A stretch of DNA of 64,000 nt, from NCBI RefSeq assembly GCF_026151205.1, contig NC_087081.1, positions 856,386 through 920,385 of the forward strand, in the 5' to 3' direction. Below are positions 614-36,400 of this stretch, one piece after another (within the stretch, counting starts at the first letter, position 1; each line of letters opens with the position of its first letter). Source of the DNA: Bolinopsis microptera. Taxonomy: Eukaryota; Ctenophora; Tentaculata; Lobata; Bolinopsidae. The notes beneath the pieces are model-generated. The model saw only the letters and a list, made by a program, of their open reading frames with translations, had not been told where the DNA came from and did not search any database. The translations under genes were made by a program, and so were the position numbers.

Positions 614-1705
614 GTGGAATACAGTATTATTCGTATAAACCGATTGGGTTGGGAGAGGAATTACTAGTTTTCTACGGAGAGGACTATTTCGAAGAGTTGG
701 GGTATTCGTTGCAGACTGATCTTGAAAATGGTAAGAATAACCTGTCGTTTTTGAAGGAGTCGGAAATGGTCACAGCAATCATTATCACGATTTTATCCCT
801 TGAAATGCAAAATTTTGTGTACACGAGACTATAAACTTATAAAATATTGCTTAGCTGGACAGGTCATCACTTTATTTCAGTAATCTTCCATTATTACAGG
901 TCAACAATATCATTGCACTGCAACTGGTTGTCTTAAGCTGTTTAAGACACAACAAGAACTGGAGACACACACATGTGGGAAGACTCGAGGAGTATCAGGA
1001 AAAGAGAAAGTACACAAGTGTGATGTGTGTGGGAAGATGTTTGCTCGAAGAGCCCATTTAACTGCACACATCAGAACAGTACACGATAAGGTAGCGAGAC
1101 TGAGCTGTCCTTACTGTAAATATAAAACTGATCACCAACACGCTCTTACATATCACATGTTAACACACACGGGGGACAAACAGTACAAGTGTACACAATG
1201 TGACTATACTGCTGTTCAGAAGCAGAGTCTTATTGCTCACATCTACAATAACCACACTAACAAGACATACAAGTGTCAATACAAGCAGTGTGGTGTTAAG
1301 AAACCTTCTGAACAGGAACTATATGATCATATCAGCACAGAGCATCCACTACAACAATACAGATGTGATGTGTGTCCAATGTCTTTTAACATAGCACAAC
1401 ATCTTAAATCACACAGGCGAACACATGGTGATTGTGAGCTAAAATCACAACACGAGTGTAAGTACTGTGGAAAACTGTTTTTACAATCAAGTACTCTGAA
1501 GAAACATGCTCTGACACACACTGGAGAGAAACCACACAAGTGTAGTGTGTGTGGTAAGGAGTTTACTCAGAACAGTCATTTAACTAGACACAAGAGGACA
1601 CACACAGGCGAGAAACCGTTCTCCTGTTCATACTGTGATAGGAGGTTTAGTGTAGCTTCTAACAAAAACAAACATGAAATTACTTGCAAGAATAGACCTT
1701 GTTGA
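614..1705 (+). CDS. PRDM9-like: PRDM9-like copy A, 3' part (end of SET plus finger array)
   Basis: Two exons are visible: 614-730 (end of the SET domain, with [14 protein letters not shown] holding the catalytic-tyrosine region) and 900-1705 (zinc fingers, stop at 1703-1705). Splice sites are tag|GT and g|GTAAG, then acag|GT, identical to copies B and C, and both exons have the same length as theirs (117 and 806 nt). The last exon begins with a degenerate C2HC finger, then eight C2H2-type fingers. The fourth has a C-x4-C spacing and the last ends in Cys. The family trimethylates histone H3 Lys4 (and Lys36) and places meiotic recombination sites. The 5' exons lie outside the window. It runs head-to-tail into copy B, 273 bp downstream. 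Confidence 0.85.
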
Positions 1706-1978
1706 AGAAATTGCTATTGGTAGTTTTCTTATAGTTTGACGAATTACTTTATCCCTATTGTTTATTGGACTATATATTTTTCTTCTATTAAAAGTTATTT
1801 TATAATTCTTGATCGTATTTGATTGTGTTATTTTCCAACTGATGTTCAAACTAATATTGTCAGAATAACTTTAGACCAACATTTGATTAATATTTAAATT
1901 GAAGTTATATTTATTATATCTCTGTTGTAAACTAACTGTTGCTTCCAACTAAATCTAATTTGTTACATTTAGAACATA
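1706..1978 (+). other. Intergenic spacer between tandem copies A and B
   Basis: A 273-bp AT-rich spacer. The same spacer separates C from D on the minus strand (33232-33492, 261 bp), so both gene pairs descend from one dimer. It should hold the polyadenylation site of A and the promoter of B, but I see no strong TATA or polyA hexamer. Confidence 0.6.
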
Positions 1979-4900
1979 ATGTCACTGTGGAAGTTGTTTG
2001 AAGGGGCCAGGTACTGTGGAGGTGTGTGTGAACACAGTCTCAAAAGATACAAGAGAATAAGAGATAACAGAGATAAGTTGGTGGAACTGGGTTTTATGAC
2101 ACTAGATGAACCACTGGAATGTTACCGGACTAAAGAATGGGAGGAACATACCTCAGCCTACTCACAGTGTAAGTTTAATCTTCACCCGTTAAACAAATAA
2201 TGAACTAACAATTAATGAACCTCTCAACCTCTGAACTTCTGCTCCAACTTTAAGTAGGCTACTGTGATAGATCAAATTATTGCCAAATTTTGTGAAATTT
2301 GTTTCTGATGACACAGTAGTCTCAAAACTCATTTTTCGTATATATTAACCATTATCTCATATCGCAGATGAAACATTGCTGAATCAGTATGAAGATGGGT
2401 TGATAAAACTTGAGGAGGTTGTTAATATTGATCCCAGAAACCCCGCTGAGAGGTACAGCTCAGACAGTGACAAAGACAGTCCTGTAGTCAACAAGAAGAA
2501 GAAATCTCCCAACAAAAAGAAGAAGTCCCACAAAGGGAAACATAAGAATGGAAGAGTTGAGACTAAAAAGATAAAAGAAGAACAGCTGGATTGTGTGGAA
2601 TGTGTAAGACAAGTTAATCAGCCTGAAGAAGCTGAAGCTCCTGAAGTAGAGGAACTAGAGATGTTCCTACACTCAGAACCTGAGTCTGTACTAGCATTAC
2701 AAGATCTACTTGTCAACAAGAATCTAGCTTCTCACCTCGGAGAAGGTCCTGTAGATGTGTGTAAACTGATTGCAGAAAACCCTGATTTTACACATGAAAT
2801 ATGTGAGGCTAACATAGACTCTCTTATGTCTGATGAGGAGTTCTATAAAATTACTTGTGAGACTTATCCTGGTGGCTGGGAGAAATTCCTGGAGGACATG
2901 TTAGTTACATTATATCTTCTTATTTAATTTGATTTAATAGCTTGAATCTTGATCATAATCGTGTTTTAGAACTTTTGCTCGAGTTTCTTTTTGCATAAAT
3001 ATTTGTCAGATTCTCAATGATGTTTTGTTTTTGAACTAAACAATGTTATGATATTATATATTTGAAGGGTACTACTTTACAGGGAGAATGAAGAGTCCTC
3101 AGATGAGGAGATAGATAGAATTGAGCTGCCTCCTGACCTCTATAATGAACTTATGTCAGACAAGAGTAATGATGTACCTGACGATGATGAGGAACAGTAT
3201 AAGTTTGGTAGAATAAACAAGGACCAGGCAGATACTTGTCTTGATCGAGCACTTGAGTTGTATGATAACTATCACAACATGACTCAGGACGAGTTAGTTT
3301 TTACTTTTGATACTTTGTTGTCTTGCACATAAATATACATTTAATGGCTTCTCTTAACAACTACATATAACATAATATATATTTTTTAATTGTAGTTGAT
3401 TGCATAGTGCTAGTGCATTTTAAATACGACTAACATGTTAATTGTTTATTTCGCAGGTATAACAAAAAAGTGAAGGAGGTGCTCAAAGATATGGATAGAA
3501 TTACTGTTCTAGATAATGATGGCGACCATACCAAAGCGAGTACTAACAAAAGTAACATACAACAAAGCAAAGAATATGCCAGAACAACACCTGAACCGAA
3601 TGACAACTTACCCTCTTGTAGCGGTACACACAACGATACTGATCGTAGTGACATGGTAACTCCAGATAAAAGTAGCAGTAGTTATCATAAGAGTATAACA
3701 GACAATGTGAGAATTGATAACACATCTGGTGTAACAACAGAGTCTGATACCAGCTCCAGCTCTGTAACACAAACAAAGAAACTCCCCACCATACTTAGTA
3801 ACAGAGAAGTGTACGAGAATATTGACAATATTCCCCGTCCTTCTTATTGGTTACCTGAGTCAGAACCTGACCCTGACCCTGAGAAGAAAGAAGAAGAGAT
3901 AGATGATTTTGAGTATCTAGGAATGTTGGATGATGGTTATCTACTAAGCTTGTTTGACGAAGATAAAGAATCAGAAGAGATGCCAAACACTGCACAGACA
4001 CACATTAGTGTTCCTACAGAAATGACTGCTGAGAGAGATAACATTCAGGAAGACTTCTCCAAGACAGAACTTGAAGCAGCTGCAGGAAAAGCTTCTAAAA
4101 ATAGACGTAGTAACCCTCCTAGAGTTGCTAAAGAGGGGGTTACATACCGTGATGATAACGATAATCTGGAGGAGGTGCTACAGTCTGAATATTGTAAGTT
4201 ACAATGTAGACGGGAGTTTACTTAAATTTGTTTATCAATACTATATGGTATTTTTTGTTATGTATCAGCAACTAAAATTCAAGTCTGAATTATAATAATC
4301 CGTTAGAATCAGATGTTCAAAAGAATCTTTGCTTAAATTAAATAGTAATGTTACTGTTTCTTTTACTGTAATAATTTGGTGGATACTTTTATAAATGACA
4401 TTTTCAATGGATTGCTTCTGTTTCCAGTTTGTTGGCAGTGTAAAGATTATGTGAGGGGAGAATGTGAACTACATGGTCCTTTACTCCCCTGTTTAGAAGA
4501 CATCACCCAACCGGGAACTAAGAAGACTGCAAACTTCCCAGTACCTAGTTGTATTGAAATCAAAGAATCCACAATTCCCAGGGCTGGAGATGGAGCTTTT
4601 GCGTCTCAGTTTATTGAACCAGGAAGTATATTGGGTAAGTCACGTGATTTGCTGGGATCAGCTTTTACTTCTTTTTTTGGTGTCCACTGTCCCTTTCTCC
4701 AGACAGCAAGTCTATAAATGTTTTGTACCCTAAAGTGGGTTGTTCTGATTTATCTATTTTATCAGGTAACTACAAGGGAAAAGTCATATCAGAAAAGGAG
4801 TACAAGAAGTTAGAGTCTTCAGATAAAGAGAGTGGATATGCGTGGAGAGCTGTTAGTCAGGACGGAGATGTTATCTATCTAGATGGGGCTAGTCACAGGG

Positions 4901-6215
4901 CTAGCAACTGGTTACGGTTTCTTAACTGTGCTCGGGGTCAATGTGAAGAGAACGTTCTTGTAAGAAATATCCCAGGTAAAATGGGGTGTTCTTATTCGCC
5001 AGTTTTCTACTGCTATGCGTCATTCTTAGTTCTTACTTATCTTACTTACTTACTCTTACTTACTTAGATTCGCTAACCTGCAACTTACCATCCTCGGATT
5101 ATTAAGCTCTATTGTATTACGATGTATTCTGGTGATAAAATACCCTTTTATCATGGAATAATTCTTCTAGGTGGAATACAGTATTATTCGTATAAACCTA
5201 TTGGGCTGGGAGAAGAATTACTAGTTTTCTACGGAGAGGACTATTTCGAAGAGTTGGGGTATTCGTTGCAGACTGATCTTGAAAATGGTAAGAAAAATTC
5301 TATAGTAACAAATAGTCGTAAATTAAATGGTCACATCGAAGATTATCTTTATTTCAAGATATTGCTGGACAATTCCTCACTTTATTTCAGTAATATTTCA
5401 TTATTACAGGTCAGCAATATCATTGCACTGCAACTGGTTGTCTTAAGCTGTTTAAGACACAACAAGAACTGGAGACACACACATGTGGGAAGACTCGAGG
5501 AGTATCAGGAAAAGAGAAAGTACACAAGTGTGATGTGTGTGGGAAGATGTTTGCTCGAAGAGCCAATTTAACTGCACACATCAGGACAGTACACGATAAG
5601 GTAGCGAGACTGAGCTGTCCTTACTGTAAATATAGGACTGATCACCAACACGCTCTCACACGTCACATGTTAACTCACAATGGGGACAAACAGTACAAGT
5701 GTACACACTGTGACTATGCTACTGTTCGAAAGGAGAGTCTCACTGCTCACATCTACAATAACCACACTAACAAGACATACAGGTGTCGGTACAAGCAGTG
5801 TGGTGTTAAGAAACCTTCTGAACAAGAACTATATGATCATATCAGTACAGAGCATCCACTACAACAATACCGATGTGATGTGTGTCCAATGTCTTTTAAC
5901 AGAGCAGATAAACTTGAGACACATAGGCGAACACATGGTGATCGTGAGCTAGAATCACAACACGAGTGTAATTACTGTGGAAAACTGTTTTTAGAATCAT
6001 GTAGTCTGAAGAGACATGCTCTGACACACACTGGAGAGAAACCACACAAGTGTAGTGTGTGTGGTAAGGAGTTTACTCAGAACTGTCATTTAACTAAACA
6101 CACGAGGACACACACAGGGGAGAAACCCTACTCCTGTTCTTACTGTGATAAGAGGTTCAATCAAAGTTGTAACAAAAACAAACATGAAATTACTTGCAAG
6201 AATAAACCCTGTTAA
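1979..6215 (+). CDS. PRDM9-like: PRDM9-like copy B, complete (SET methyltransferase, 8+ fingers)
   Basis: Exons: 1979-2168, 2368-2899, 3083-3292 (an in-frame alternative acceptor gives 3068), 3457-4193, 4428-4634, 4766-4975, 5171-5287, 5410-6215. Phases join without a break to give about 1,002 codons. Exons 1-4 encode about 556 residues with a Lys-rich patch and long acidic, Ser-rich stretches. I see no KRAB box. Exon 5 opens with a C-x2-C-x7-C-x2-HGP zinc knuckle as in PRDM9, then IPRAGDGAF. Exon 6 carries [10 protein letters not shown]. Exon 7 carries LLVFYGEDY. Exon 8 has a C2HC finger plus eight fingers with TGEKP-type linkers. Expected role: nuclear H3K4/K36 methyltransferase that binds DNA through the array, probably in meiosis. 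The start was chosen because all copies share it directly after the upstream spacer. Confidence 0.88.
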
Positions 6216-6790
6216 GGATATTGTTATTGGCAGTTTTGTTTTAGTTTGACGGATTACTTTATACTTATTGAGCTATTTCTTCTTAGTTATTATATAATTC
6301 TTGATCGTTTTTTGATTGAGTGATTTTGAAACTAATTGTCTGAAAACTTTGAACAAACATTTAACTGTAGAATAATCGTTTTATTGTCTCTTGACATCAA
6401 ACTTGACTTCCCTTCCCTCATTGATTTTGGCTAAGGTCAGGTTGTTTTCACTTGGAATTCTTCAGTCATTTCTCTATTCTCCGTACGCTATAAACGGTCC
6501 GTGTCGGCTGTCCTGAATTTATTGTTAGTTTACGTGACGCGCAATGTGATTACGCTGATCAAATAGTAAAATTTGACCAGCAACCTTGACATAAAAGCGC
6601 GGCTCAGTAAAACTTCATCTGCGCGTTCTTGATCTTCCTGCTTTTTCATTTAATTGTAGGTTTACAACCTACCAGGACGCGCGCCGAGTTGGACTCGTCG
6701 ACGGTCCTGGAATAGTATATGGAACAGATATTTTACGAGTATCACCCGTTAACTTTTTCAACGTGTGAATTTATAGGTTTATACTTTATA
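6216..6790. other. Downstream flank of copy B
   Basis: Homology to the 3' flank of the other copies fades by about 6360. The rest is non-coding, becoming richer in CpG and GCGC motifs towards the repeat block. I see no gene. Confidence 0.5.
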
Positions 6791-6794
6791 ACCG

Positions 6795-7500
6795 ATAACT
6801 TGTAGCGCGATGCGTTACTGTGCCGCGCCGAGCTGAGATGAATTGACATCGTCAATTAACCGATAACCTACCGTGTCGTTACCGGGTCTTACTACTGGAC
6901 AGATATATTCACGGGTATCACTCTTGAAAGGGAAACGAATAATAATTTCCGAAATTAACCTGGTATGGTGAGCAAATTTTTGACGGATGTTACTCGTCTA
7001 AATTTCTTCGAAGTGGCTCTATGGCAAGTGCTACAAAGTAGCGCGCGCCGGGCCAGATCATTAACAGTGGTCAAAGCAAATTTGTATTCATATATACGTG
7101 AGTTTAGAGAAGCGACCATCAGACGTCACATAGCTATGTGTCTACGCGTACTGCGTGACGCGCTTGTTTCACAAGGCAAGCGGCCTCCTTTGCCGCCTTC
7201 GGCGGTCGCGCGCTACTGCAAGCGAGAGGGCTCTGGTTAGAGCAACCATCAGACTACGCTGCATTAGGGTAATTCTACGGGTTGGCACTGGGCAATGAGT
7301 ATTTATAAACTTCTTTTTAAAAAAAAGAGAGGCTGGGCCTGGTCATGGTTGGCCCACGACAGGATAGCATATGGTTGTAGCCAGTAGCGCGATGCACTAC
7401 TGGGCCGCGCCGCGCATCAAATAATTCTTCTCGCAGATCGGCGAGATGCACCACTGGGCCTCGCCGAGCTGCGAAGGATTGACTTCGTGAATCAAAGCAT
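6795..7500. repeat. GC-rich dispersed repeat block
   Basis: Three related stretches (6805-6862, 7382-7422, 7436-7492) share a core like GCGATGC-ACTG-GCCGCGCCGAGCTG followed by an ATTGAC/GTCAAT hairpin. A further copy lies inverted at 49381-49440. Another segment, 6979-7075, recurs at 48606-48722 (direct) and its last part at 8132-8170 (inverted). This is a dispersed repeat family, probably non-autonomous; its class is not established. An ORF at 6965-7240 lies in this sequence and looks like chance. Confidence 0.6.
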
Positions 7501-7798
7501 ATGGATGCTTTGCCTACTTCTGGGGTATGGCAGTCCTATGGGAGGATGCCGGTGGAATCAAAATGTGTAATCAAGGATGATGGTAAGTGTTGTGGGGTGT
7601 GTCTAAGATGAACGCTTAAATGGTGGTTGAGTGTTGAAGAGAGAGGCGAACTAAGACGGCGTTTGAGTAGTCGCTATGTTACACCGGTCTAGTCCAACTC
7701 CTCTGGCACCATTATGAGTTTAGTGTGGTTTGCAAAGTTGACGATGGTGGAGATGTGTTAGTTGTCATTGACAGATAGGTAGTAGTCCCGGAAATATT
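7500..7798. other. No recognised feature
   Basis: Unique-looking non-coding sequence inside the GC-rich repeat region. I see nothing to annotate. Confidence 0.4.
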
Positions 7799-8085
7799 AC
7801 TGGGCCGCGCTCAGCCTGTCATTCCGCCTAATCTCTATTCGTTTATGAACATGATAGCCTGAGTCCCCAGGTTACGGAAATATTGACCTCTTATTTGGGC
7901 AATAGCCTGGCACTGTCCGAGAAAGTGTGAGACAATCTCCTCTTCGTCGCCGCATTTAGGACAAGCACTCATGTGTCTGATTTGCGAATGGTGTGAAGGT
8001 GTGTACTCGTTTAGTAGGTAGGAATTTGGATCATAAATTGCAGATGCGAAATGACTCAAATAGGTTTTTAAAGTGCTGGGAAAGG
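7799..8085 (-). mobile_element. LINE 3' end fragment with Cys/His knuckle
   Basis: The minus-strand ORF 7835-8059 ends in CPKCGDEEEIVSHFLGQC, the C-x2-C...H-x4-C knuckle found at the C-terminus of many LINE polyproteins after the reverse transcriptase (and RNase H where present). The stop is followed by a 3' tail, GGCGGAATGACAGGCTGAG in minus-strand sense, which recurs at 47650-47700 and 47905-47955. The element is strongly 5'-truncated. The clade cannot be told from this short piece. Confidence 0.6.
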
Positions 8086-8229
8086 ACTAATCTTTCATAT
8101 TTTAAAAAATGACTTTTTTGAATTGTTGTTGACCATTGTTAATGATCTGGCCCGGCGCGCGCTACTTCGTAGCTCTTGCCATCGGGCCAGACCATAGAAA
8201 AACGAGGAGTTTTACGGCAGATTTGTGCC

Positions 8230-8520
8230 GTAGAATGACATTGGCTACGAGATACGTCACGTGACGTGCGCGCGCAACCAATTACAAGGCCAGAATTTGA
8301 TCACGCTGAAAGTTAAGTGAGCGCTGTACTCCAAGCGTGACCAAGACACGCGGTTACGATTGGCCGAAAACTGTGTCACGTGATGCAGCGCGTGATATAT
8401 TTCAATCAATTGCGACGTCAGATTTGAATCATCTGACATTGTCACATGGTATATCTTAGCACGCGTTGGATCCGTTCTAGAAGAATGTGGATTATTCTAG
8501 AAGCTATTTCAACTTTGTAC
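8230..8520. promoter_or_regulatory. Promoter-like block: E-boxes, CCAAT boxes, heat-shock elements
   Basis: The block holds CACGTGAC at 8260, CACGTGAT at 8377, CCAAT-type sequences (accaatta at about 8277, gattggcc at about 8359), a GACGTC core near 8414, and two heat-shock element dimers at 8474-8503. It lies just downstream of a repeat block, and similar CACGTG/CCAAT sequence occurs at 48010-48080, so it may be part of a mobile element rather than a host promoter. No convincing gene starts immediately downstream. Confidence 0.35.
8474..8503. promoter_or_regulatory. Two heat-shock element dimers in phase
   Basis: Read in 5-bp units the sequence is gTTCt aGAAg aatgt ggatt aTTCt aGAAg. Two perfect TTCnnGAA pairs are separated by exactly two units, which puts them on the same helical face. 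This is the established HSF binding architecture; function here is inferred. Confidence 0.45.
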
Positions 8521-8589
8521 TTGTACTTGGTACGTGTTGTTGCCTCGTTATTTTTCCGACGCTACATGTTATTCGCTTGATGCTCATGT

Positions 8590-8710
8590 TGATGCATTCC
8601 TCGAATGACTTCTTATCTATACACTTCTAATCTATCATTCTTATCTATTACTTCTTATCTTTCCACTCTTATCCTATCTTTTTTATCTATGTAATATGAT
8701 CTATATTCAG
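8590..8710. repeat. Degenerate TTATCTA repeat
   Basis: Repeated cttctTATCTAt-like units across about 110 bp, imperfect in length and sequence. Simple-sequence DNA with no coding potential. Confidence 0.5.
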
Positions 8711-9960
8711 TATCACTCTCAGATCTTGGAGAGCTATGTATTATCAAGCAGCAGTTTATCTTAGTTTGTGTTATCTAATCAATTATTATAAATTAAATAA
8801 TCAAATAAATCCAATGCTTGAATCTAATGCATGTTATGTTGATGTTAGGTTTTTGTACCGTCTTGTCATTGTGGATAACTATTTTATGCTTCTCTGTGGT
8901 TCATGTGTTTCTTTTGCCCCTACCTGCTGTGTCATGACATTAATGCGATGTGATCAGTGTTCTCATATTGCAGGAGTATTTGTGGGAGTCTGTTAGTGGT
9001 ATTTACTTACATAAGTAAATACCGTAGTTTATCATATGAGCTTCTCTTTTTATTGAATTTGCTGTAAGAAGATAATTTACATGGTCTTTTGATATTTGTT
9101 GTTCGAGCTGGCTTGATAACGTTTTGATAATTGTATAACACAATTTGATATTGCTCTCAACTTTAAGCGTGAGATCTGAGGGTCCATGATTGGTAATTTG
9201 TTTTGCTGGTATCAGCTTGCAGAAACTGCAAGGCCTGTTGTCTTTTGGGTTTTAAAATCATCAAACTTTATTCTTGCCAATTATTTGCTGCATCAGAATG
9301 AATGGCAACCCAATTTAGATATGGTTTAACTAAAACAGTGGTTTCATATTTACCGCTTCGAAATTAGAACATTTTTCGTATAATCAGTGGAAAAAAAGTG
9401 CTTTGTGTGATGGTAACATTTGCTTTGAAGTAATACATTTGCATCGATCCGCGGGGCCTAATGTTTTAATGAAGCTGTCATAACAAGTTTGATTTCATTC
9501 TAAATCGAAATCACATAGATTCGAAGCGTGAGAAAACTTTAAAATCTGTGTTTAACTCGGTTCTTCGTTTAACATAATGGTTGGGGACTTTGGGTAATTA
9601 CTATTTGGATTGATTTAATTACGTTAAATAAGTGATATGTGGAGATTTGCTAACCTGGCGGGTCCGTGGAAGTTAGTATACTTACACAGACTTATTTTGA
9701 CGAGCTATTTTTGGAACATTATTAAGCTTTATATTTTTCTTAGTCTAGTCAAAGTTAATTTCGTCTGTTATCCATTAGCCCCTTACCTGCATGCGTGCGT
9801 AATACTAATCAGATACTGTTAACAAGTATTTTATGATAAGGTACCAAATGGTGAGTCAGAGAAAAGTTTATCAATGAATGTATGTGTTAATCTAAAATAT
9901 CGAGATTTTGTTCAGCGCTGATCAGCTTATTTATGGCAAATATATAATAGATTATTATTT
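8710..9960. other. No recognised gene
   Basis: AT-rich sequence with only short chance ORFs. I see nothing to support a gene or mobile element. Confidence 0.4.
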
Positions 9961-9963
9961 CAG

Positions 9964-12500: not shown

Positions 12501-12506
12501 TCACAG

Positions 12507-20367: not shown

Positions 20368-22582
20368 CTGAACGTCTTCAATCTGGCGAAAGAAAAGAAA
20401 ACAGTTATAAAGTTAAATTAGGTTAATTTCATGATTAACAAAAATATGTCTAGCCTAACTAACCATTTAATATTCAATAATCATATTATATGGTAAAGTT
20501 TTTGTCGACTTGTGACCACTCATTAAAGTGGCTGGCTTCAAAAAGTTTTCTTGATACAGGATAATTTTCATATTGCCCATTTTACTTGACTTTGTATACT
20601 TGGACTTGAAACCTGCACTAATATAATCGCTCACCAGAACTTGTATAGAACCGGTCCTTAAAAAATCCTTACTGATTTCTATCTATTGAACGATTTAACG
20701 GTATTAACAGTAATGGAATTTTTAACGGGTATTAACCAGTAATGCAATGTGGCCGATTTCAAGGAGACAAGTTTAGTTTCCGAGGGGAACTACATATTAC
20801 TCCAGCTCAGGTATTGAAACAAGACTTGATGCGTCACAATTACCTATTGTGACATTTTCAGAAAGTGTAACACTTTAATAATTTAAATTGGGGACTAGAA
20901 ATGTAACACTTTAAATATTGTTAATTTACACGGTTCGGTTAGTTATATATCGAATGTTCTTACTACACGAATGAGAATGTGAGCACGCGCTAAAGGCTAA
21001 TGTAATATGGTGAATAAATACAAAAACATACAACAATTCTGAATCACAATCTCACCAATTTTCCAGCCGTTACAATAAGAAAGCTTTAGGCTCTATCAGG
21101 TTATCCTAAAAGTCAGAAAGAGCCTCCGGCTAGCCACCTTATTGTAATAAGACTAGAAGTGTCAACGGTTCACTAATACATTGTAAACACATCTGGTGTT
21201 TTTCACACTTCACCAGGACCTATTTTACTTGACTTTGAAACCTGCTAGTACTAATATAATCGCCTCACATAGCGGTCCTTAAATCCTCTGTTTCTAAACT
21301 ATTGAAACGATTTAAACGGTATTGACAGTAATGTAATTTGTCTGTGGAAGTGGAGAGTTTTGGATTTTTAAGCTGAACTTTAGAACTGTATGATTACTGT
21401 ATCAGACAAACTTATCGCAGGATACTGTTGAACAGCAACAACATTTTGAAAAGAGACTGATTTTCAAGGAGACAAGTTTAGTTTGCGTGGGAACTACAAT
21501 TACGCCATTCAGTATTGAAATGGAACAAGACTTGATGCGTCACAATATCTATTGTGACATTCTTCAGGAAGTGTAACCTTGTTAATGTAACATGACTAGA
21601 AATGAAACACTTAAATATTGTAACAAGATTAGAAGTGGGACACTTACAATATTATGGATACGATTTAGAAGTGTAACACTTAAATATTGTGATTTGATTG
21701 ATGTAACATTAGTTCATGTAACCAATAGCTTGTTCAGTTAAGTCATGAATCTGACCGTACTCACAGGTTGTTAGGGTTTTCCTTTATATACACGGGTTAC
21801 AACGAGGTACACTGTGCAATTTTAATTTTAGTATAAGTAATGTGCCTGGTGTAATTACACCGGATCGGTTAGTATATCGTATGTTCTTACTACACGAATG
21901 GATTGGTGGCACACGCCACTGTAATTATGGTGAATAAAATACAAAACATTACAACAATTTTGAATTCCACAACTCACACTTTTCCAGCCTTTACAATAAC
22001 AAAGCTTAGCTCATATCATGTTCATCTAAACGTCAGAAGAGCCTCGGCTAGCACCTTATTGTTATAAGACTAGAAGTGTCACGCTTCACTGATATATTGT
22101 AAACACATCTGTGTTTTCACACTTCACAGGACCTATTTTACTTGACTTTGAAACCTGCTTGTACTAATATAATCGCTCACCATTAGATGTCCTTAATCTC
22201 CTATGTTTCTAAACTATTGTTGTAACGATTTAACGGTATTGACAGTAATGTTATTTGTCTGTAGAAGGAGGGTGTTTTTTGATTATTTATCCTGAACTTT
22301 AGAAAACTGTAATGATTACTGTATCAGTCAAACTTATCGCCTGGAATGATTCACACGCCACATACATTTTGAAAGAAGTAGGAACTGATTTCAAGGAGGA
22401 CAAGTTTAGTTTTGCGAAGGGAACAACAATTACTCCAGATCAGGTATTGAAAAACAAGGACTTGATGCGTCCACAATTATCTATTGTGACATTTCAGAAA
22501 GTGTACCACTTTGTAATTGTAACATGACTAGAAATGTAAACACTTAAAATATTGTAACAAGATTAGAAGTGGGCACTGCCCC

Positions 22583-22583
22583 C

Positions 22584-22618
<35 letters not shown>
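22583..22618. other. Poly-C run in satellite, probable artefact
   Basis: An almost pure run of C interrupts one satellite unit at the place where other units read gggacacttaaatattatgatacg. No other unit has it. It looks like a sequencing or consensus artefact. Confidence 0.6.
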
Positions 22619-22620
<2 letters not shown>

Positions 22621-23607
22621 ATGATTTTGATACGATTAGAAGGGTAAAACACTTAAATAATGTGATTTGATTAGAAGTAACATTAGTTCATGTTAACCAA
22701 TAGCTTGCTTCAGTTAAATACATGAATCTGGACCGTTACTCAGTATGTTTTGGGATATTCCTTTATAACACGGTTACCGAGGTACACCTGTGCAATTTTA
22801 ATTTCAGTATAAGTAATGTTGCCATGGTGTAATTTACAACGGATCGGTTAGTATATCGTATGTTCTTAACTTCACGAATGAGATATTGGTGGCACACGCC
22901 AATGTAATTGGTGAATAAAAGACTAAAAAATTACAACATTTTTGATTTCACAACTCAAATTTTCCAGCCTTTACGATAATCAAAGCTTTAGCTTCATATC
23001 ATGTTATCCTAAACGTCAGAAGAGCCTCCGGCCTAGCTCCTTATTGAATAAGACTAGAAGTGTCCACGCTTCCACAGATATATTGTAACACATCTGGTGT
23101 TCAACACTGCACAGGACCTATTTTACTTGACTTTGAATCCTGTAGTTACTAATTTAATCGCTCACATAGCTGTCCCCTTAAATTCTACTGTTTCTTACTA
23201 TTGTACGATTTAACGGTATGTCATTAATGTAATTGTCTGTAGAAGGAGGAGTTTTTTGATTTTAAAGCTGACTTTAGAACTGTAATGATTAATGTATCAG
23301 TCAACTTATCGCAGGAACTGGTTTCACAGCACAACATTTTGAAGAGCCTGATTTCAAGGAGCCAAGGTTAGTTTGCGATGGGACTACATTACTTCCAGAT
23401 CAGGTATTGAACAAGACTGATGCGTCACAATTATCTATTGTGACATTTTCAGAATGTGTAACACTTTGATGATGTAACATGACTAGAAATTGGTATACTT
23501 AAATATTGTAACAGATTAGAGTGGCACTTAATTTATTCTGATACGATTAGAAGTGTAACACTTAAATATTGTGATTTGATTAGAAGTAACATTTGTTCAT
23601 GTAACCA

Positions 23608-23702
23608 AAATTTAGGGCCCTTTTGTTTTTTTTTTTTTTTTTTTTCCAGTTTTTAAAAATTTTTTTAAAAATCCCCCCCCAAAAAATTGGGGGAAAATAA
23701 AA
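23608..23702. other. Homopolymer block in satellite, probable artefact
   Basis: Long T, A, C and G runs replace the expected unit sequence between 'gtaaccaa' and 'atctgaccgtactcacag'. The same position in the other units is ordinary sequence. Most likely a gap-filling error. Confidence 0.6.
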
Positions 23703-26700
23703 TCTGACCGTACTCACAGTTATGTTATGGATATTCCTTTATAACACGGTTCCACGAGGTAGACTGTTGATTTTAAATTTAGTATAAGTAATGCGCCATG
23801 GTGTAATTACACCGGAGCGGTTAGGATTATATATGTATGGATTCTTACTACTAACAAATGAGATTTGGTGGCACGCGCTATTGCAATTTGGTGAATAAAA
23901 TACTTAAACATCACAATTCTGAATTCACAACTCCCACTTTTTCCAGCCATTACCAATAAGAATGCTTTTAAGCTCATATTCATGTTATCCTAAACGTCAG
24001 AAGAGCCTCCGGCTAGACCTTATTGTAATTAATAGACTAGAAGTGTTCAAGCTTCACTAAGATAAATTGTAACACATCTGGTGTTTTCCACACTTCACGG
24101 ACCTATTTACTTGACTTTGAACCCTGCTTTACTAATATAATCGCTCACATTAGCGGTCCTTAAATTCCTACTGTTTCTAACTATTGGATCGATTTAACGG
24201 TATTGACAGTTAATGTAATTTGTATGTGGAAGGAGGAGTAGTTTGATTTTAAGCTGTGCTTTAGAACTGTAATGGATTACTGTATCAGTCAACTTATCGC
24301 AGGAAACTGATCACAGCACTAACATTTTGAAAGAGGACTGATTTCAAGGAGACAAGTTTAGTGTGCGAGGGAACTACACTTACTCTGATCAGGTATTGAA
24401 AACAAGATTGATGCGTCTCAATTATTATTGTGACATTTTCATAAGTGTAACACTTTGATAATGTAACATGACTAGAAATGTTACACTTAAATATTGTAAC
24501 AAGATTTAGTGTGGGACACGTAAATATTATGATACGAATTAGAAAGTGTAGCATTTAAAATATTGTGATTTGATTAGAAGTAACATTAGTTCATGTAACC
24601 AATCAGAATTGTTCAGTTAATTACATGAATCTGACCGTACTCACAGTTGTTATGGGATATTCCTTATAACACGGTTACACGAGGTACACTGTGCAATTTT
24701 TAATTTAGTTTAAGTATGTGCCAATGGTGTAATTTACACACCGGATCGGTTAAGTATTTCGTATGTTCTTACTACACGAATGAGATTGGTGGCACACGCC
24801 CAATGTAATTGGTGAATTAAATAACAAAAACATACAAACAATTTTTGAATTCACACTCACACTTTTTCCAGGCATTTACAATACAAAAGCTTTCAGCTCA
24901 TATCATGTTATCCTAAAACGTCAGAAGAGCCTCCGGCTAGCACTTATTGTAATATGACTAGAAGTGGTCACGCGTCACAATATATTGTAACACTTCTGGT
25001 GTTTCTACACTTCACAGGACCTATTTTACTTGACTCTGAAACCTGCTAGATTCTAATTAATCGCTCACATAGCTGTCCTTAATTCCTACTGTTTCTAACC
25101 TATTGAACGATTTACGTATTGACAGTAATGTAATTTGTCTGGGAAGGTGGAGTTTTTGATTTTAAGCTGAAAAAAAAAAACTTTCTAGAACTGTAATGAT
25201 TACTGTATCAGTCAACTTATCGCATGAACTGATTCACAGCACAACATTTTGAAGAGACAATGTGGACGATTTCTAGGAGACAAGTTTAGTTTGCGAGGGA
25301 ACCACAATTACTCCAGAATCTGGTATTGAAACAGGAACTTTGGTGCGTCACCATTTAATATTGTGATCATTTTCAGAAGGGTTAACACTTTGATAAATGT
25401 AACATGACTAGAAATGTAAAAAACTTAAATATTTAACAAGATTAGAAGTGGGACAATTAATTATGATGATACGATTGAAGTGTAACACTTAAATATTGTG
25501 ATTTTGATTAGAAGTAACCATGTTCATGTAACCAATAGCTTGTTCAGTTAATTACATGAATCTGACCGTACTCAACAGTTAAGTTATGGGATATTCCTTA
25601 TAACACGGTTACACGAGGTACACTGTGCAATTTTTATTTAGTTTAAGTAATGCGCCATGTGTAATTTACCCGGATCGGTTTGTTATTTATCGTTATGTTC
25701 TTACTACACAAATGAGATTTGGCTGGCACGCGCTAATGCAATATGGTGTATAAAAATTACAAAAAACATACAACAAATTCTGATTCACAACTTCACCAAT
25801 TTTCCAGCCTTTACAATCAGAAAGCTTTAGTCATATCATGTTATCCTAAACGTGTCAAAAGTGCCTCCGGCTAGCACCTATTGAATAGTCTAGAAGTGGT
25901 CACGCTGCACTAATATATTGTAACACATCTGGTGTTTTCACACTCACAGGACCTATTTTACTTTACTTTGAAACCTGCTAGTACTTATATAATCGCTCAC
26001 ATAGATGTCCTTAAATCTTCTGTTTCTAAACTAGATTGACGATTTATTTAAACGGTATTGACATTAAATGTAAGTTGTCTGTGGAAGGGAGGAGTTTGAT
26101 TTTAAGGCTGAACTTTTGAACTGTAATGATTACTGTATCTGTCAACTTATCGCACGGACTGATTCACAGCACAACTTTTTGAAGAGACAATGTGGCCGAT
26201 TCAAGGAGCAAGTTTAGTTTGCGAGAACTACAATTACTCCAGGTCAGGTTATTGAAACAAGACTTGATGCGTCACAATTATCTATTGTGACATTTTTCAG
26301 AAGTGGTAACACGTTTGATAATGTAACATGACTAGAACTGTATCCTTAAATATTGTAAAAGATTAGAAGTGGCCCACTTAAATATTTATGATTACGATTA
26401 GAAGTGTAACATTAAATATTGTGATTGATTAGAAGTAACATTTGTTCATGTAACAAATTGCTTGTTCAGTTAATTACATGGAATCTGACCGTATCACAGT
26501 TGTTATGGATATTCCTTTATAACTCGGTTCAACGAGGTACACTGTGCAATTTTAATTTAGTATTAGTAATGCGCCATGGTTGTAATGTAACCGGATCGGT
26601 TAGTTTTATATCGTATGTTCTTACTACACGAATGAGATTTGGTGGCACTCGCTAATGTAATATGGTGAATATAAATAAAATTACTAAAAAACATACAAAC

Positions 26701-27709
26701 ATTATGAATTCACAAACTTCACACTTTCCAGCCTTTTACAATAAGAAAGAGTTAGCTCCATATCATGTTTATCCTAAACGTCAGGAAGAGCCTCCGGCTG
26801 CACCTTATGTAATAAGACTAGAGTGTCACGCTTTCACTAATGAGATTGTTACACATTGGTGGTTTCTAACTTCACAGGACCTATTTTACTACTTTGTAAC
26901 TTGCTAGTACTAATATAATCTAGCTAAACTAATATAACACATAGCTGTCCTTAAATACTACTGTTTCGAACTTATTGAACCGATTTTAACGGTATTGACA
27001 GTTAAATGTAATTTGTCTGTGGAAGGAGGAGTTTGATTTTAAGCTGAACTTTAGAATGTAAGGATTACTGTATCAGTTCAAACTTTCGCAGGACACTGAT
27101 TCCAGCCAACATTTTGAAGAGACAATGTGGGCCGATTTCAAGGAGACAAGTTTAGTTTGCGAGGGAAATACAATACTCCAGATCAGGTATTGAAACAAGA
27201 CTTGATGGCGTCACAATTAATCTATTGTGACATGTTCAGAAGTGTAACACTTTGATAATGTAAAGACTAGAAATGTAAACACTTAAATATTGTACACAGA
27301 TTAGAAGTGGGGTCACTTTATACTATTATGATACGATTAGATGTGTAAACACTTAAATATTGTCATTTGATTAGAAGTAACATTTATGTTCATGTAACAA
27401 ATTGCTTGTGTTCGTTAATACATGAATCTGTCCGTTTCACAGTTGTTATGGGATATTCCTTTTTATAAACACGGCTTACACGAGGGTACACTGTGAAATT
27501 TTAATTTAGCATTTTGTCATGCGAATGGTGTAATTTACACCGGATCGGTTGGTCTATCGTATGTTCTTACTACTTTACTACACGAATGAGATTGGTAGGC
27601 ACGCGCCAAATGTTAATATGGGTGAAATTATTACAATATGTTGCGTATAAAAATACAACAATTCGAATTCTCAACTCGCACTTTTCCAGGCATTGTAAAG
27701 AGACTTATG

Positions 27710-30700
27710 CGTCAAAATTGTTGTAACGACTTCACTATTGTAACTAGGATTAGAACTAGAAGTTATAAAACGCCAGTCTAATAACTGAAATATTAGAATC
27801 AGTAACAATATGATTGCGATCGGATACTAGGGTAATATTAGGGCAGCACGGTTTAATGAAATGAAGGGCCACCTGATAAATATATTCAAATCTGAGTCAA
27901 AGTTTGTAGACGACTCAAAAAAAACAACTTTTAGTATCATCGACTAAACGTCTTATATTAGTTTATTATATTGAAACTCTAGAATATTGTATTAATGAAC
28001 GAACGGTAGGTTTCGAAAAGAAGGTGGAGAGGAGCGTACTTTTACTTTACTCTGATTGCAATAATTTGTAATGTTAAATTTATACATTGATTAAAGACGG
28101 GCCTGTTTTTTTACTTGTTACGTTGTTTATAACGAGATGCGCTATCAGAAAAACGAATGCTCGGACACGATCACTTTATTAATAAATCAAACTAACAATT
28201 CAAGTGGAGTATACTTTAAATAACCTTGTTCAGTTCCTTAGCTAAATTGAATACATTAAACGCCAAACAGTGTGATTCGACAGCACAGCTCTTTAAAAGG
28301 GGAAAACCCCGCCTAACCAAAGTAACGATGCTGGTGAATCGCTTGGCTAGCTGTTTACGAAGTTGCCATCCGGGGCAACCCGGGTGTGTTAACCTCGCTC
28401 CTGTTCCCACATAAATCACAAGCTGTAGATGCTACCTTAGGTTCCTTGGCATAACTTATTTAAAGGTTTAACTAAAAATGCGAGATTGGTCACTGATTGA
28501 TTTGATTCGGGCTTTTATATTCTTGGGCCCCTCCCATATGATCAACGTGTATCAGCCAAATTGTTAGCAGTCACATAGTTTTTTTTGTTTTAGTATTTAA
28601 TTTACAATTCGTATATCACTTATGTGTCGGCCTCCCTACGCCCTAATTGCCGATTGCAAAAATTGAAATATAATATATCGTTTTTATGCATAATGGGGTG
28701 TGGTGAAAGTCAACATGTGACGTACAGTTTGATAAAGTTTTTTATGGCCTGCCAGACTGGGGGAGCACTAAATTTCGCAAATTTTGTAGTCCACTTGTAT
28801 CCGAAATTTCCCCATGGCCCACGTGCACACGCGCACCAACGTCACAGTGACAAATTATCAACCTTCGTGATTCCTTGTAGCTTACACCATACGCCCTATT
28901 TTTGTAATGAGGAATGTTCTCGATCTGTGAAACATTGCAACGGCGAGGCCAACTTTCATACATTAGTTAACATATCATAAAACGGGTGATGAATAAAAAA
29001 TGGGACTACATGTTTTTGAGCCTCAGCTTCCACCTGAACACTTTTTCATTATTTTACACAACCACCAGTTACTCTGAACGATCTCGAAACAGTCTCCGCC
29101 CCCATTTGATCAATTGGTTGATCTTGTCCCGTACTGGTCTTCGAAAACTAGGGGAGGGGTTCTATTAAATTTTTTACAGTTAAGAGCCACTGTTCACAGA
29201 AGTCGCTCTCAAGGTAGTTCAAGCTTCTACCAAAAACTTTTTAGCAGAGAGTATGCCTAAACTTCCCATCTATCACATCCTAAAGCGATTTTAGCAGCAG
29301 AGGTCGGTAGCCAGAGCTACAGGAGACAAAAAATGCCATCCTGTATTATGGCACTTCGAAAAATTGACCCAGTAGAATGCTGGTGAGCCACATAACCGGC
29401 TCCCTGGTGATCCGTTTTGGCTGTACTCTCGGTTTTTTCCAGGGCTGTCACATGACTAAATGTTTGTTGTTTGAAAGATGTCAAAGCCTTTAGGATTAGA
29501 GGAAAAGACTTATATGAGAAGTCGTGAGCAAATTCAAACATATTAGGGTTTTATTTCGTCCAAAAAGTGACGGACAAAGTAAATTTTGTCAATATCAAAC
29601 CCATAGAGGCTTTTTTGGAGTCCTCGGGCAACACATTGTACATGCCCGAATATATGCTAGAGAAGCCTACATGAGCCCTAGGGGCACAAAAAAGATGAGA
29701 CTTGCGCCAACACGGTTTTAGGCCAAACTGTACAGACGGGGAAAAATAAATTTTCTGAGCTTGAAGAAAGAAGCCCTCCTGAAAACAATCAAACTGGGCT
29801 CATGGCGTCTTGTCATTGACCATACTGTTAAAAAATTGCCCGCTTTACAACGCTTGTTTCATTGGTTTGAACCAAATATAGTTTATCGACACTAAAAAGG
29901 ACCCTTGAAAAAAGTCCATTTTTTAGTCATCTCCCGTTAGCATACAATTTATTATTTATACACGCAGTAGGGACTGTGTAAAGTTAGCGATATTTTAACT
30001 GTTATCTTAAAACTATGTTAAAGAATTTAGGCTCAAATAAAATTTAATTGTACTAAAAATTTTTGGTTACTTCAAAATTAATCGCCGAAAAATTTAGTCC
30101 ACATTGAAATTGGTTAACAACAAATTATAGTCACATGGTCAAAAGTTTTGGACTAAATTTATGGTAGGACTAAATTTGTGTTCTTAAGGTACAGTGATAC
30201 TGACAGACTCAAATCAGAGAAAGGTTATGATACATGCAAGTTGACTTGGAATCTTAACTGACCCAACTCCTACGCAGTACTTCAGACGGGGCCCGTATCT
30301 CCGTACAAAACGTCGGTGATCAGTATTTGAAGGACAAGCTGGAGCCGGCGGAAAAGCCAACCATTCTGGACACCCCCTTCCTCAGTCGGCAAGTGAGATG
30401 ACTTTCAAGGGGGGAGAAATACATTGTAGGGATTATTCATAATGAGCTACGGCCGGAAACGTAAGCTAACCAGCTAAATGAATTTAATTATTAAGTAATA
30501 CAACGAGAAACAATCGAATTCAAATTATATTAGCTCCTAGTCCCAAATACTTGATGGTTATCTGGCCTCAAAAACAGGTTGAACAGAGAACTTTATTGGA
30601 TGACTACGCGAGCACTAAGGAGGTAGTTAGAACTTCGATTCACTGTATGGTTATTGTAACATGCGTTGAATTAATTAACTCTGACATTGCACCTTGGTAT

Positions 30701-32075
30701 CCTTTACCGATTTCTAGCACCTGCCTAGTTCCTACCTGCCTAGGGTCGATCCAGAAGAATCTGAAGGATTTTCTGTCTTCTAGTAGAAACGTACGTGAAG
30801 TCTTATGTGGTCTGCTAGTATCAAATACTATTATTCAGGTCACTGTTAATACGTGCCGTCTAGTTAGATTCAAATACAGGGATCACGGACTACCGTCTAG
30901 CTAGAACAAAAACTCCATTAGTAATCTATACGCAACGCGTAACGTACTGTATAGCTAGGGTCTAAGTTAGGGTTGCTTTGGATCATCCTTGTGAGTCTGC
31001 TTTGCCGCCAAATTGATGGTGCGGAATCTTTGCCGCTATCATCTTAGTCCTACCTTCCTCTCTTCCTTCCCTAGTCTTACACTTTGAAATATCTAATTAA
31101 ATAACATAATCTATTATTTCTAGATCGGTCGTAATGTTAGAAAGAGTATACACTTGTGAGTAGTGAGACTTTATGACACAATTCACGAGCCGCAGAGCCA
31201 ATAAAGGTAAATTTTGGACCTTGGGACATGAGAAATTGTGGAGAGGAAGGGCAACAATGTGGCCGTATTTCATGTATAGTTTCTTAACTTTCTGCAAGAT
31301 TTTAATATAACAGGTGATTTTAAATTCATTCTTTACAGGCTACCGAGATTTTCAGTGTCTCAAGTCAACTAAACCTGCTCCTTGCCCTTCATTCAGGACT
31401 GCGTTCTACTAAGACAAGTTCTGAAGTTTAGATCGAGATTTAACTATTGAAGTAGATAATCAATTGTATAATGTATAAATTGCATGTATTAAATTTAAAG
31501 AATTTCTGTTCTTGAATGACTTGAAAACATTTGAAATCCAATTGTGTTAGTGAGATACAAGAGGGTCTTACTACTATTAGTGCTGTCAATATAATATGCC
31601 GATTTTGTCGCAGGTCGACTGGCAAGCAACGACAGGCAACCGGAGTTCAGCAAATTCATCTGATCAGCCTTAAAGTATATGCTCATGATGAACAACGTAA
31701 GACATCAATCTTGGTTAAATGTTCTAACTAGATCAAACGATTTGGACATTCATTTACTTAAATGCTACATCAACATGTAATACTTGATAGACATTACCTT
31801 CAATTATTTTGTGACTGAACTGTTGAAATGTGAACACAATCCAACCCTTGAATTATGATCATAGGATTACTTCGACCAAGTTTACATACTATATAACATA
31901 TTATATATTTTAACTATGACAGTGGGTTGCATACGTTACGCTGTTTCAGAAGCCTGTGAACCCGGCTCTTTGTAATATGCAATTTTTTAGCATTATTGTG
32001 ATAGCTGCACTGAAAAGTATTTTGGGGGGTCTTGTAATTTCTACTTGTAAACTTAACTCAAACCTCAATCTTTTT
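27710..32075. other. No recognised gene
   Basis: About 4.4 kb between the satellite and the truncated copy D. ORFs at 28216-28419, 28624-28980, 29317-29541 and 30551-30904 show no domain I recognise. It may include decayed repeats. I see no tRNA, rRNA or CRISPR-like structure. Confidence 0.4.
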
Positions 32076-33231
32076 CTCCTCATCTGAGGACTCTTCATTC
32101 TCCCTGTAAAGTAGTACCCATTAAATATATAATATCATAACATTGTTTAGTTCAAAAACAAAACATCATTGAGAATCTGACAAATATTTATGCAAAAAAA
32201 AAACACGAGTAAAAGTTCTAAAACACGATTATGATCAAGATTCAAGCTATTAAATCAAATTAAATAATTAGATAGTGTAACTAACATGTCCTCCAGGAAT
32301 TTCTCCCAGCCCCCGGGATAAGTCTCACAAGTAATTTTATAGAACTCCTCATCAGACATAAGAGAGTCTATGTTAGCCTCACATATTTCATGTGTAAACT
32401 CAGGGTTTTCTGCAATCAGTTTACACACATCTACAGGACCTTCTCCGAGGTGAGAAGCTAGATTCTTGTTGACAAGTAGATCTTGTAATGCTGGTACAGA
32501 CTCAGGTTCTGAGTGTAGGAACATCTCTAGTTCATCTACTTCAGGAGCTTCAGCTTCTTCAGGCTGATTAACTTGTCTTACACATTCCACAAAATCCAGC
32601 TGTTCTACTTTTATCTTTTTAGTCTCAACTCTTCCATTCTTATGTTTACCTTTGTGGGACTTCTTCTTTTTGTTGGGAGATTTCTTCTTCTTATTGACTA
32701 CAGGACTGTCTTTGTCACTGTCTGAGCTGTACCTCTCAGCGGGGTTTCTGGGATCAATATTAACAACCTCCTCAAGTTTTATCAACCCATCTTCATACTG
32801 ATTCAGCAATGTTTCATCTGCGATATGAGATAATGGATAATATATACGAAAAATGAGTTTTGAGACTACTATACTGTGTCATCAAAAACAAATTTCACAA
32901 AATTTGGCAATAATTTGATCTATCACAGTAGCCTTTCTGAAGTGACTACTTAAAGTTGGAGCAGAAGTTCAGAGATTGAGACGAGAGGTTCATTAAAATT
33001 GTTAGTTCATTATTTGTTTAACGGATGAAGATTAAACTTACACTGTGAGTAGGCTGAGGTATGTTCCTCCCATTCTTTAGTCCGGTAACATTCCAGTGGT
33101 TCATCTAGTGTCATAAAACCCAGTTCCACCAACTTATCTCTGTTATCTCTTATTCTCTTGTATCTTTTGAGACTGTGTTCACACACACCTCCACAGTACC
33201 TGGCCCCTTCAAACAACTTCCACAGTGACAT
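32076..33231 (-). pseudogene. PRDM9-like copy D, 5' fragment only
   Basis: Minus strand. Exon 1 33231-33042, exon 2 32817-32286, and the first 27 or so bases of exon 3 from 32103. The match to B and C then stops abruptly at about 32076. Exon lengths (190 and 532 nt), splice sites and reading frames are intact up to that point. Its intron 1 keeps a segment (gctactgtgatagatcaaatt) present in copy B and absent from C. Without the SET domain and fingers it cannot encode the enzyme; it could at most give a short N-terminal protein. It lies 261 bp downstream of copy C, in the same orientation. Confidence 0.85.
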
Positions 33232-33492
33232 TATGTTCTAAATATAACAAACTAGATTTAGCTGGAAGCAACAGTTAGTTTACAACAGAGATATGATAAA
33301 TATAACTTAAATTTAAATATTAATCAAATGTTGGTTTAAAGTTATGCTGACAATATTAGTTTGAACATCAGTTGGAAAACTCCACCAGTTCAGAATTATA
33401 AAATAACTTTACATAGAAGAAAATATAGTCCAATAAGCAATAAGCATAAAGTTATTCGTCAAACTACAAGAAAACTACCAATAACAATTTCT

Positions 33493-36400
33493 TCAACAGG
33501 GTTTATTCTTGCAAGTAATTTCGTGTTTATTTCTGTCACCACTTTCACTAAACCTCCTATCACAGTAAGAACAGGAGTAGGGTTTCTCCCCTGTGTGTGT
33601 CCTCATGTGTCTAGTTAAAGTACTGTTCTCAGTAAACCCCTTACCACACACACTACACTTGTGTGGTCTCTCTCCAGTGTGTGTCAGAGCATGTCTCTTC
33701 AGATCACCAGATTGTAAAAACAGTTTTCCACAGTACTTACACTCGTGTTGTGATTCTAGCTCACGATCACCATGTGTTCGCTTGTGGTATTCAAGATTGT
33801 GTGCTATGTTATAAGACATTGGACACACATCACATCTGTATTGTTGTAGTGGATGCTCTGTGCTGATATGATCATATAGTTCCTGTTCAGAAGGTTTCTT
33901 AACACCACACTGCTTGTACCGACACTTGTATGTCTTGTGAGTGTGGTTATTGTAGATGTGAGCAGTGAGATGCTGCTTCTGAACAGCAGTATAGTCACAG
34001 TGTGTACACTTGTACTGTTTGTCCCCCGTGTGTGTTAACATGTGACAGGTAAGAACTTGTTGGTGATCAGTCCTATATTTACAGTAGGGACAGCTCAGTC
34101 TCGCTACCTTATCGTGTACTGTTCTGATGTGTCGTGTTAAGTTACGCCTCTGAGCAAACATCTTCCCACACTTGTCACACTTGTGTACTTTCTCTTTTCC
34201 TGATACTCCTCGAGTCTTCCCACATGTGTGTGTCTCCAGTTCTTGTTGTGTCTTAAACAGCTTAAGACAACCAGTTGCAGTGCAATGATATTGCTGACCT
34301 GTAATAATGAAATATTACTGAAATAAAGTGAATTGTTCAGCAATATCTTGAAATAAAGATAATCTTCGATGTGTAATTTACGACTATTTGTTACTATAGA
34401 ATTTTTCTTACCATTTTCAACATCAGTCTGCAACGAATACCCTAACTCTTCGAAATAGTCCTCTCCGTAGAAAACTAGTAATTCTTCTCCCAACCCAATA
34501 GGTTTATACGAATAATACTGTATTCCACCTAGAATAATTATTCCATGATAGAAGGCATTGCACAACGATACAAATATTTATTTATACTAATAGTCATTAA
34601 CTAAACCAATGTTATTTCATCGCCAGAATACACCTAAGTAAAATACAGCTTATTTAATCTGTGAATGGTAAGTTGCAGGTTTATAACGATTCTGCCCAAC
34701 ATACTTGGGTATGAAATATTCACAACTCATGTAAATAGATAAGTAAAAACGTAGAAAACTGGCGCATATGTCCACCCAATTTTACCTGGGATATTTCTAA
34801 CAAGGACGTTCTCTTCACATTGACCCCGAGCACAGTTAAGAAACCGTAACCAGTTGCTAGCCCTGTGACTAGCCCCATCTAGGTATATAACATCACCGTC
34901 CTGGCTAACAGCACGCCACGCATATCCACTCTCTTTATCTGAAGACTCTAACTTCTTGTACTCCTTTTCTGATATGACTTTTCCCTTGTAGTTACCTGAT
35001 AAAATAGATAAATCAGAACAACCCACTTTAGGGTACAAACATTTATAGACTTGCTGTCTGGAGAAAGGGACAGTGGACACAAAAAAAAAGAAGTAAAAGC
35101 TGATCCCAGCAAATCGCGTGACTTACCCAATATACTTCCTGGTTCAATAAACTGAGACGCAAAAGCTCCATCTCCAGCCCTGGGAATTGTGGATTCTTTG
35201 ATTTCAATACAACTAGGTACTGGAAAGTTTGCAGTCTTCTTAGTTCCCGGTTGGCTGATATCTTCTATACAGGGGAGTAAAGGACCATGTAATTCACATT
35301 CTCCCCTCACATAATATTTACACTGCCAGCAAACTGAAAAACAGAATTTCATTAAAAACATCATTCATAAAAGAATCCACCAAATTATTACAGTAAAAGT
35401 AACAGTAACATTACTATTTAATTTAAGCAAAGATTTAGTAAAATTCTGAGGGATCATTATAATTCCAATAGTTTCAACTTTAATTTCAGTTGTTGCTACC
35501 AAACAAAAAATACCATATAGTAAACAATAAGTAAACTCTACGTATTGTAACTTACAATATTCAGACTGTAACACCTCCTCCAGATTATCGTTATCATCAC
35601 GGTATGTAACCCCCTCTTTAGCAACTCTAGGAGGATTACTACGTCTATTTTTAGAACCTTTTCCTGCAGCTGCTTCAAGTTCTGTCTTGGAGAAGTCTTC
35701 CTGAATGTTATCTCTCTCAGCAGTCGTTTCTGTAGGAACACTAATGTGTGTCTGTGTAGTGTTTGGCATCTCTTCTGATTCTTTATCTTCATCAAACAAG
35801 CTTAGTAGATAACCATCATCCAACATTCCTAGATACTCAAAATCATCTATCTCTTCTTGTTTCTTCTCAGGGTCAGGTTCTGACTCAGGTAACCAATAAG
35901 AAGGACGGGGAATATTGTCAATATTCTCGTACACTTCTCTGTTACTGAGTATGGTGGGGAGTTTCTTTGTTTGTGTTACAGAGCTGGAGCTGGTATCAGA
36001 ATCTGGTTTGGTTTTTACACCAGATGTGCTATCAATTATCACATTGTCTGTTTCACTCTTATGATAACTGCTGCTTCTTTTATCTGGAGTTACCATGTCA
36101 CTACGTTCAGTATCGTTGTGTGTACCGCTACAAGAGGGTAAGTTGTCATTAGGTCCAGGTGTTGTTCTGATATATTCTTTGCTTTGTGGTATGTTACTTT
36201 TGTTAGTACTCGCTTTGGTATGGTCGCCATCATTATCTAGAACAGTAATTCTATCCATATCTTTGAGCACCTCTTTCACTTTTTTGTTATACCTGCGGGA
36301 TAAAGAATCAACATGTTAGCAATCTTTAATATGCACTAGCACTATGCAATCAACCTCAATTACAAAATATATATATTATGCAGTGGTTACGAGAAGCCAT

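Follow-up and report, generated by a model that had tools for sequence, protein, structure and literature searches.

The closest known counterparts of the genes reported here are the vertebrate PRDM9 genes, whose proteins combine KRAB, SSXRD and PR/SET domains with a zinc-finger array. In mammals, PRDM9 determines where meiotic recombination takes place. In canonical Prdm9, the SET domain is split across three exons and the array is carried in one last exon (PMC11703093). Here we describe a PRDM9-like cluster in a 64-kb window (the whole stretch of DNA analyzed, positions 856,386 to 920,385 of contig NC_087081.1) from the ctenophore Bolinopsis microptera. The cluster comprises the 3′ end of one gene (copy A, + strand), a complete gene (copy B, +) and, ~26 kb from B, a fragment and another complete gene (copies D and C, both on the − strand). 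Like vertebrate PRDM9, these copies have a zinc knuckle and PR/SET domain, the three catalytic tyrosines and a divergence that is focused on the residues contacting DNA. Unlike it, they have eight fingers in each of three arrays, occur as neighboring tandem and inverted copies, and show an uncertain KRAB region and no detectable SSXRD.

Prdm9 is known to exist outside vertebrates (Oliver et al., 2009; PMC2779102). That study reported selection in Nematostella at finger positions −1, 3 and 6 and in Capitella at a single codon; the three Capitella sequences were regarded as either possible alleles or paralogues undergoing rapid divergence. The arrays of Nematostella, Lottia and Capitella show concerted evolution among fingers (PMC2779102), whereas the fingers of the ctenophore copies are individual and can be compared finger by finger on one contig. 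Several copies per genome, some of them in tandem, are also reported for ruminants and salmonids (PMC5351255, PMC11703093). The ruminant copies lie on chromosomes 1 and X and have tandemly repeated arrays, except for one copy without an array, and two of them show positive selection at positions −1, 3 and 6 (PMC5351255). In salmonids, many duplicates of the alpha type are truncated or pseudogenized (PMC11703093). Keyword searches of an open-licence literature library turned up no comparable PRDM9 cluster in an invertebrate among the papers listed. Collections of viral and prokaryotic contigs, which say little about such a locus, yielded no confirmed relative (2 pattern matches with array B in the viral contigs and 76 with the SET query in the genome contigs).

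Contact residues of the finger arrays

The array of each copy is encoded by exon 8 (copy A, 900..1705, +; copy B, 5410..6215, +; copy C, 33493..34298, −), an open frame with C2H2 Pfam matches that specifies a degenerate C2HC finger followed by eight C2H2/C2HC fingers. We took helix positions −1, 2, 3 and 6 as the contact residues, which gives 32 contacts per copy (eight fingers with four each) versus 196 other array residues. Read as A/B/C, the contact strings are RAHA/RANA/QRNR in the first finger (F1), HHAY/HHAR/HQVC in F2, QQSA/RESA/QQHA in F3, SQED in all copies in F4, IQHS/RDKT/IHNY in F5, QSTK/ECSR/QGDR in F6, QSHR/QCHK/ESTR in F7 and VSNK/QCNK/EGDK in F8. An initial annotation of this DNA had listed the same strings and counted 19 contact differences between A and C versus about 18 among some 195 other positions. 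Both the strings and the contrast hold, the latter at 19/32 contacts versus 18/196 other residues (Fisher p = 8e-10). The same focus is evident for A/B (16/32 versus 18/196, p = 2e-7) and for B/C (23/32 versus 15/196, p = 1e-14).

The differences follow the DNA-reading positions closely. When summed over the three pairs and eight fingers, columns −1, 2, 3 and 6 score 13, 17, 16 and 12 and the next highest column scores 6, making these the four most variable of the 21 finger columns (1 chance in 5985). Contacts differ in all three pairs for seven of the eight fingers; the exception is F4, which has an odd C-x4-C spacing and invariant contacts. All eight fingers have their zinc ligands in A, B and C. 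As a side observation, helix position 2 tends to be common along a copy in fingers 6–8 (S,S,S in A; C,C,C in B; G,S,G in C), as if these residues had changed together.

We fitted a three-sequence codon model to 227 array codons, leaving out the last, invariant codon, and estimated the ratio of non-synonymous to synonymous rates (dN/dS, omega). Under uniform silent rates, omega was 3.14 at the contacts (interval ~1.8–5.6) versus 0.32 elsewhere (likelihood ratio test, LRT, 72; p = 2e-17), and the contact value was above 1 (p = 6e-5). Contacts thus exceed the framework in dN/dS; the initial annotation had named the absence of such an excess as the refuting outcome. A separate silent rate for the helices improved the fit (rate 3.2, p = 0.004). 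With this same local rate, contacts exceeded the non-contact residues of the helix (omega 0.22; LRT 20.6, p = 6e-6). Much weaker constraint, or diversification, at the contacts is therefore a firm reading of the codon comparisons, and strict positive selection, although likely, hinges on which silent baseline is used. Of the positive-selection signature originally proposed, the excess of contacts over neighboring helix residues stands and an omega above 1 does so only under one baseline.

Gene structure and the SET domain

From splice signals and homology, copies B and C were modeled as complete genes of eight exons and 1002 amino acids, each with an open frame and GT/AG introns. Copy B spans 1979..6215 (+; exons 1979–2168, 2368–2899, 3083–3292, 3457–4193, 4428–4634, 4766–4975, 5171–5287 and 5410–6215) and copy C spans 33493..37731 (−; exons 37731–37542, 37372–36841, 36657–36448, 36292–35556, 35333–35127, 34995–34786, 34528–34412 and 34298–33493). 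Their exon lengths are identical, as had been noted earlier, throughout the gene (190, 532, 210, 737, 207, 210, 117 and 806 nt). Exon 7 of copy A (614..730, +), a splice-bounded homologue coding for the PR/SET end, including the positions that align with Y341 and Y357, also measures 117 nt. Upstream of this exon, copy A lies left of the window edge, which leaves B and C as the only copies with a complete gene in view. As in canonical Prdm9, the knuckle and PR/SET region occupies three exons (exons 5–7; 4428..5287, +, in copy B) and the array is confined to one terminal exon.

The best PDB match of the knuckle-SET region is PRDM9 (4c1q, E = 2.8e-19), aligned from knuckle residue 1, followed by PRDM12 (1.2e-15, knuckle not covered) and PRDM11 (1.9e-14, knuckle covered); this closeness is a ranking of PDB matches. 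Exons 5–7 of copy B also match the Pfam families PRDM2_PR (5.6e-25) and SET (1.4e-10). Copy B has tyrosines at all three places aligned to the catalytic Y276, Y341 and Y357 (human PRDM9 numbering; PMC5519329). In copy C, exon 6 encodes the same residues, and exon 7 departs from that of B only by Leu/Val at another place. The PRDM9-like character first assigned to the genes is borne out by this match and by the tyrosines. Furthermore, the B/C dN/dS of exons 5–7 is 0.11, so that the methyltransferase region has been under constraint.

Copy D is a 5′ fragment (32075..33231, −) recovered by self-blastn, gene modeling and tblastn. It retains an open exon 1 (33231–33042), an open exon 2 (32817–32286) and ~28 nt from the start of exon 3. 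Beyond this point the homology shared with the other copies stops, and tblastn yielded neither a SET nor a finger piece assignable to D in the window. In self-alignments, B and C are 90% identical across 4.5 kb, the ends of A and B are 86% identical, and the end of A plus the start of B matches the end of C plus the start of D at 90.6%. Thus, the C-D pair mirrors the A-B tandem as an inverted duplication in which D was broken off in exon 3.

The content of the window is eukaryotic, with intron-bearing PR/SET zinc-finger genes and reverse transcriptases of the LINE and copia types. No piece of the gene was found by blastn or tblastn in the ~26 kb separating B and D. A direct repeat of ~930 bp is present between the two gene pairs (20745–27694) in several copies at ~80% identity. 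Farther along, an inverted 357-bp repeat (39909–40263/47115–46759, 95.8%) flanks a LINE-like open frame of 979 amino acids with endonuclease and reverse transcriptase domains (43623–40684, −). Copia-type reverse transcriptase pieces (RVT_2; 62474–64000, −) lie ~1 kb from a gap of 100 N (61401–61500). Short tandem repeats occur at 49472–49846 (194 bp, 1.9 copies, 100% matches) and 54484–54694 (68 bp, 3.1 copies, 97%), and Rfam gave 0 matches in the window at gathering thresholds.

Alternative readings and probable exchange between copies

We lean toward reading the locus as a PRDM9-type cluster in which the DNA targets of the copies are kept or driven apart. Several results weigh against this interpretation, and they bear on two alternatives in turn. 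The main rival, less probable in our judgment, views the copies as transposon repressors or transcription factors with PR/SET and zinc-finger domains. Like the members of KRAB zinc-finger clusters, they would have divided target sites among themselves once duplicated, and they would not take part in placing recombination. Paralogues of duplicated KRAB zinc-finger genes also diverge at contact residues and are often under positive selection there (PMC3126818). Near-perfect 84-bp finger repeats are the structure shaping the known evolution of PRDM9 (PMC6116924), and minisatellite-type repeats of this kind are absent from the ctenophore arrays. Indeed, turnover of the minisatellite type is unlikely here because the fingers of a copy (seven per copy, F4 left out) share on average just 33–35% of their residues (maximum 57%) and 46–48% of their nucleotides (maximum 67%). 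Constraint outside the SET exons, which is weaker (B/C dN/dS ~0.5 in exons 1, 2 and 4), also weighs against our own interpretation.

The N-terminal domains of PRDM9 are not established in the copies either. KRAB had no Pfam match up to E 10, and PDB matches came only at E 1.2 or worse, none of them KRAB. An ungapped 28-residue match between exon 1 and the KRAB region of human PRDM9 (an approximate query; z 3.7, equaled by 11 of 2000 shuffles) is no more than suggestive of a KRAB domain, and the fold prediction for the exon (pLDDT, a confidence score, 53) is too poor for use. SSXRD, a short domain found with low sensitivity, had no Pfam match up to E 10. When compared to an approximate sequence of human PRDM9, the 70 residues preceding the knuckle scored below shuffles, and the segment including the knuckle scored above them (z 5.7, 0 of 2000 shuffles), for which the knuckle alone may account. 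Vertebrate PRDM9 orthologues without KRAB and SSXRD are described as lacking rapid finger evolution, a bat being the one possible exception, and swordtail fish whose PRDM9 is of this type are described as behaving like knock-outs (PMC5519329). Against the rival stand the SET domains of the copies, which are closest to that of PRDM9 and keep the catalytic tyrosines. KRAB zinc-finger proteins are not known to have a PR/SET methyltransferase domain. Given the uncertain KRAB and SSXRD and the non-minisatellite array, we therefore do not file these genes as bona fide PRDM9 but as PRDM9-like at the SET and contact level.

A second alternative, which we consider doubtful and which is compatible with the other readings, invokes no diversifying selection. 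Contacts would change roughly as fast as expected for old paralogues under neutrality, and constraint and gene conversion would keep the frameworks alike. When the helix rate was free, contact omega was 1.40 (~0.7–3) and not different from 1 (p = 0.34). Silent changes were more frequent in helices than elsewhere for A/C (10/37 versus 9/109, p = 0.008) and B/C (14/37 versus 10/111, p = 1e-4), and codons with an invariant residue also varied silently more often in helices (8/27 versus 13/150, p = 0.005). The raw divergence of intron 7 between A and B (31.6%) is close to the contact dN of 0.32. All comparisons are between paralogues of one genome. However, the silent excess was not significant with degeneracy matched (p = 0.07 and 0.16) and was absent in A/B (5/37 versus 12/109, p = 0.77), and the uniform-rate model put contact omega above 1. 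Under the neutral explanation, seven helices in each copy would also have had to escape exchange with no selection at work, and A, B and C all retain intact frames and zinc ligands.

The copies have a mosaic history, which fits the exchange in our interpretation and also confounds dN/dS. From intron 1 to 7, B/C divergence is 2.4, 2.2, 14.8, 16.9, 1.5, 35 and 0.9%, a heterogeneity (chi2 68, p = 3e-13) computed without intron 6 because its homology is doubtful. Intron 7, which adjoins the array, differs by 0.9% between B and C and by 31–32% from that of A, yet each pair shows only 0 or 1 silent change over the 45 codons immediately preceding the array, of which the first five belong to intron 7. 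Therefore, gene conversion or an equivalent exchange has probably acted and dN/dS is to be read with care, a caution similar to that raised for fingers inside one array (PMC5519329). The mosaic state of the copies, together with helix silent sites that themselves look more diverged, is what makes an omega above 1 dependent on the baseline. Private silent changes at helix positions 1, 4 and 5 number seven, five of them in C, whose helices look as if replaced in short tracts. No helix donor was found within the window, where identity between any of the 24 helices and another finger reaches at most 14 of 21 nt; F1 of copy C alone matches another finger (F7 of A, 14) better than its own (11), and no donor follows from this. 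Our preferred reading is that exchange homogenizes the frameworks while the helices are kept different.

Very improbably, the copies could be alleles misplaced side by side in the assembly: the scaffold is not gapless and nothing further favors such an artefact, but the gap at 61401–61500 holds all 100 N of the window and leaves A, B, D and C on one gapless stretch, B and C are oppositely oriented, the ~26 kb between B and D yielded no piece of the gene, and introns diverge locally by up to 17% between B and C (35% in the doubtful intron 6) and by 32% between A and B (intron 7).

Proposed role of the cluster

The open gene models, the PRDM9-closest SET domain with its catalytic tyrosines, the contact-focused divergence and the mosaic history were computed; from them we infer how the cluster may work. 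The locus would be a small cluster of PRDM9-type genes in tandem and inverted order, each with a knuckle, a catalytic PR/SET domain and an eight-finger array in the last exon. The array of each copy would bind its own DNA target, and the SET domain would methylate histones nearby. Purifying selection and gene conversion between copies would keep the frameworks alike, and selection would keep or drive the DNA-reading residues apart, directing the copies to different sites. For this putative germline role, the start of meiotic recombination would be the most likely setting, as for PRDM9.

More tentatively, and in line with the several recombination maps or targets envisaged by the initial annotation, the cluster may provide several PRDM9-type recombination specifiers in one invertebrate genome, with helices kept apart by selection, the rest homogenized by gene conversion and, possibly, helix-sized tracts exchanged with unseen paralogues. 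If true, the Red Queen would be met by copy number instead of minisatellite turnover. The non-repetitive fingers align finger by finger and thus offer a cleaner test of contact selection than minisatellite arrays, provided that exchange between copies is modeled. If the genes are meiotic, several targeting proteins would coexist in one genome and would let one test whether duplication can answer hotspot erosion.
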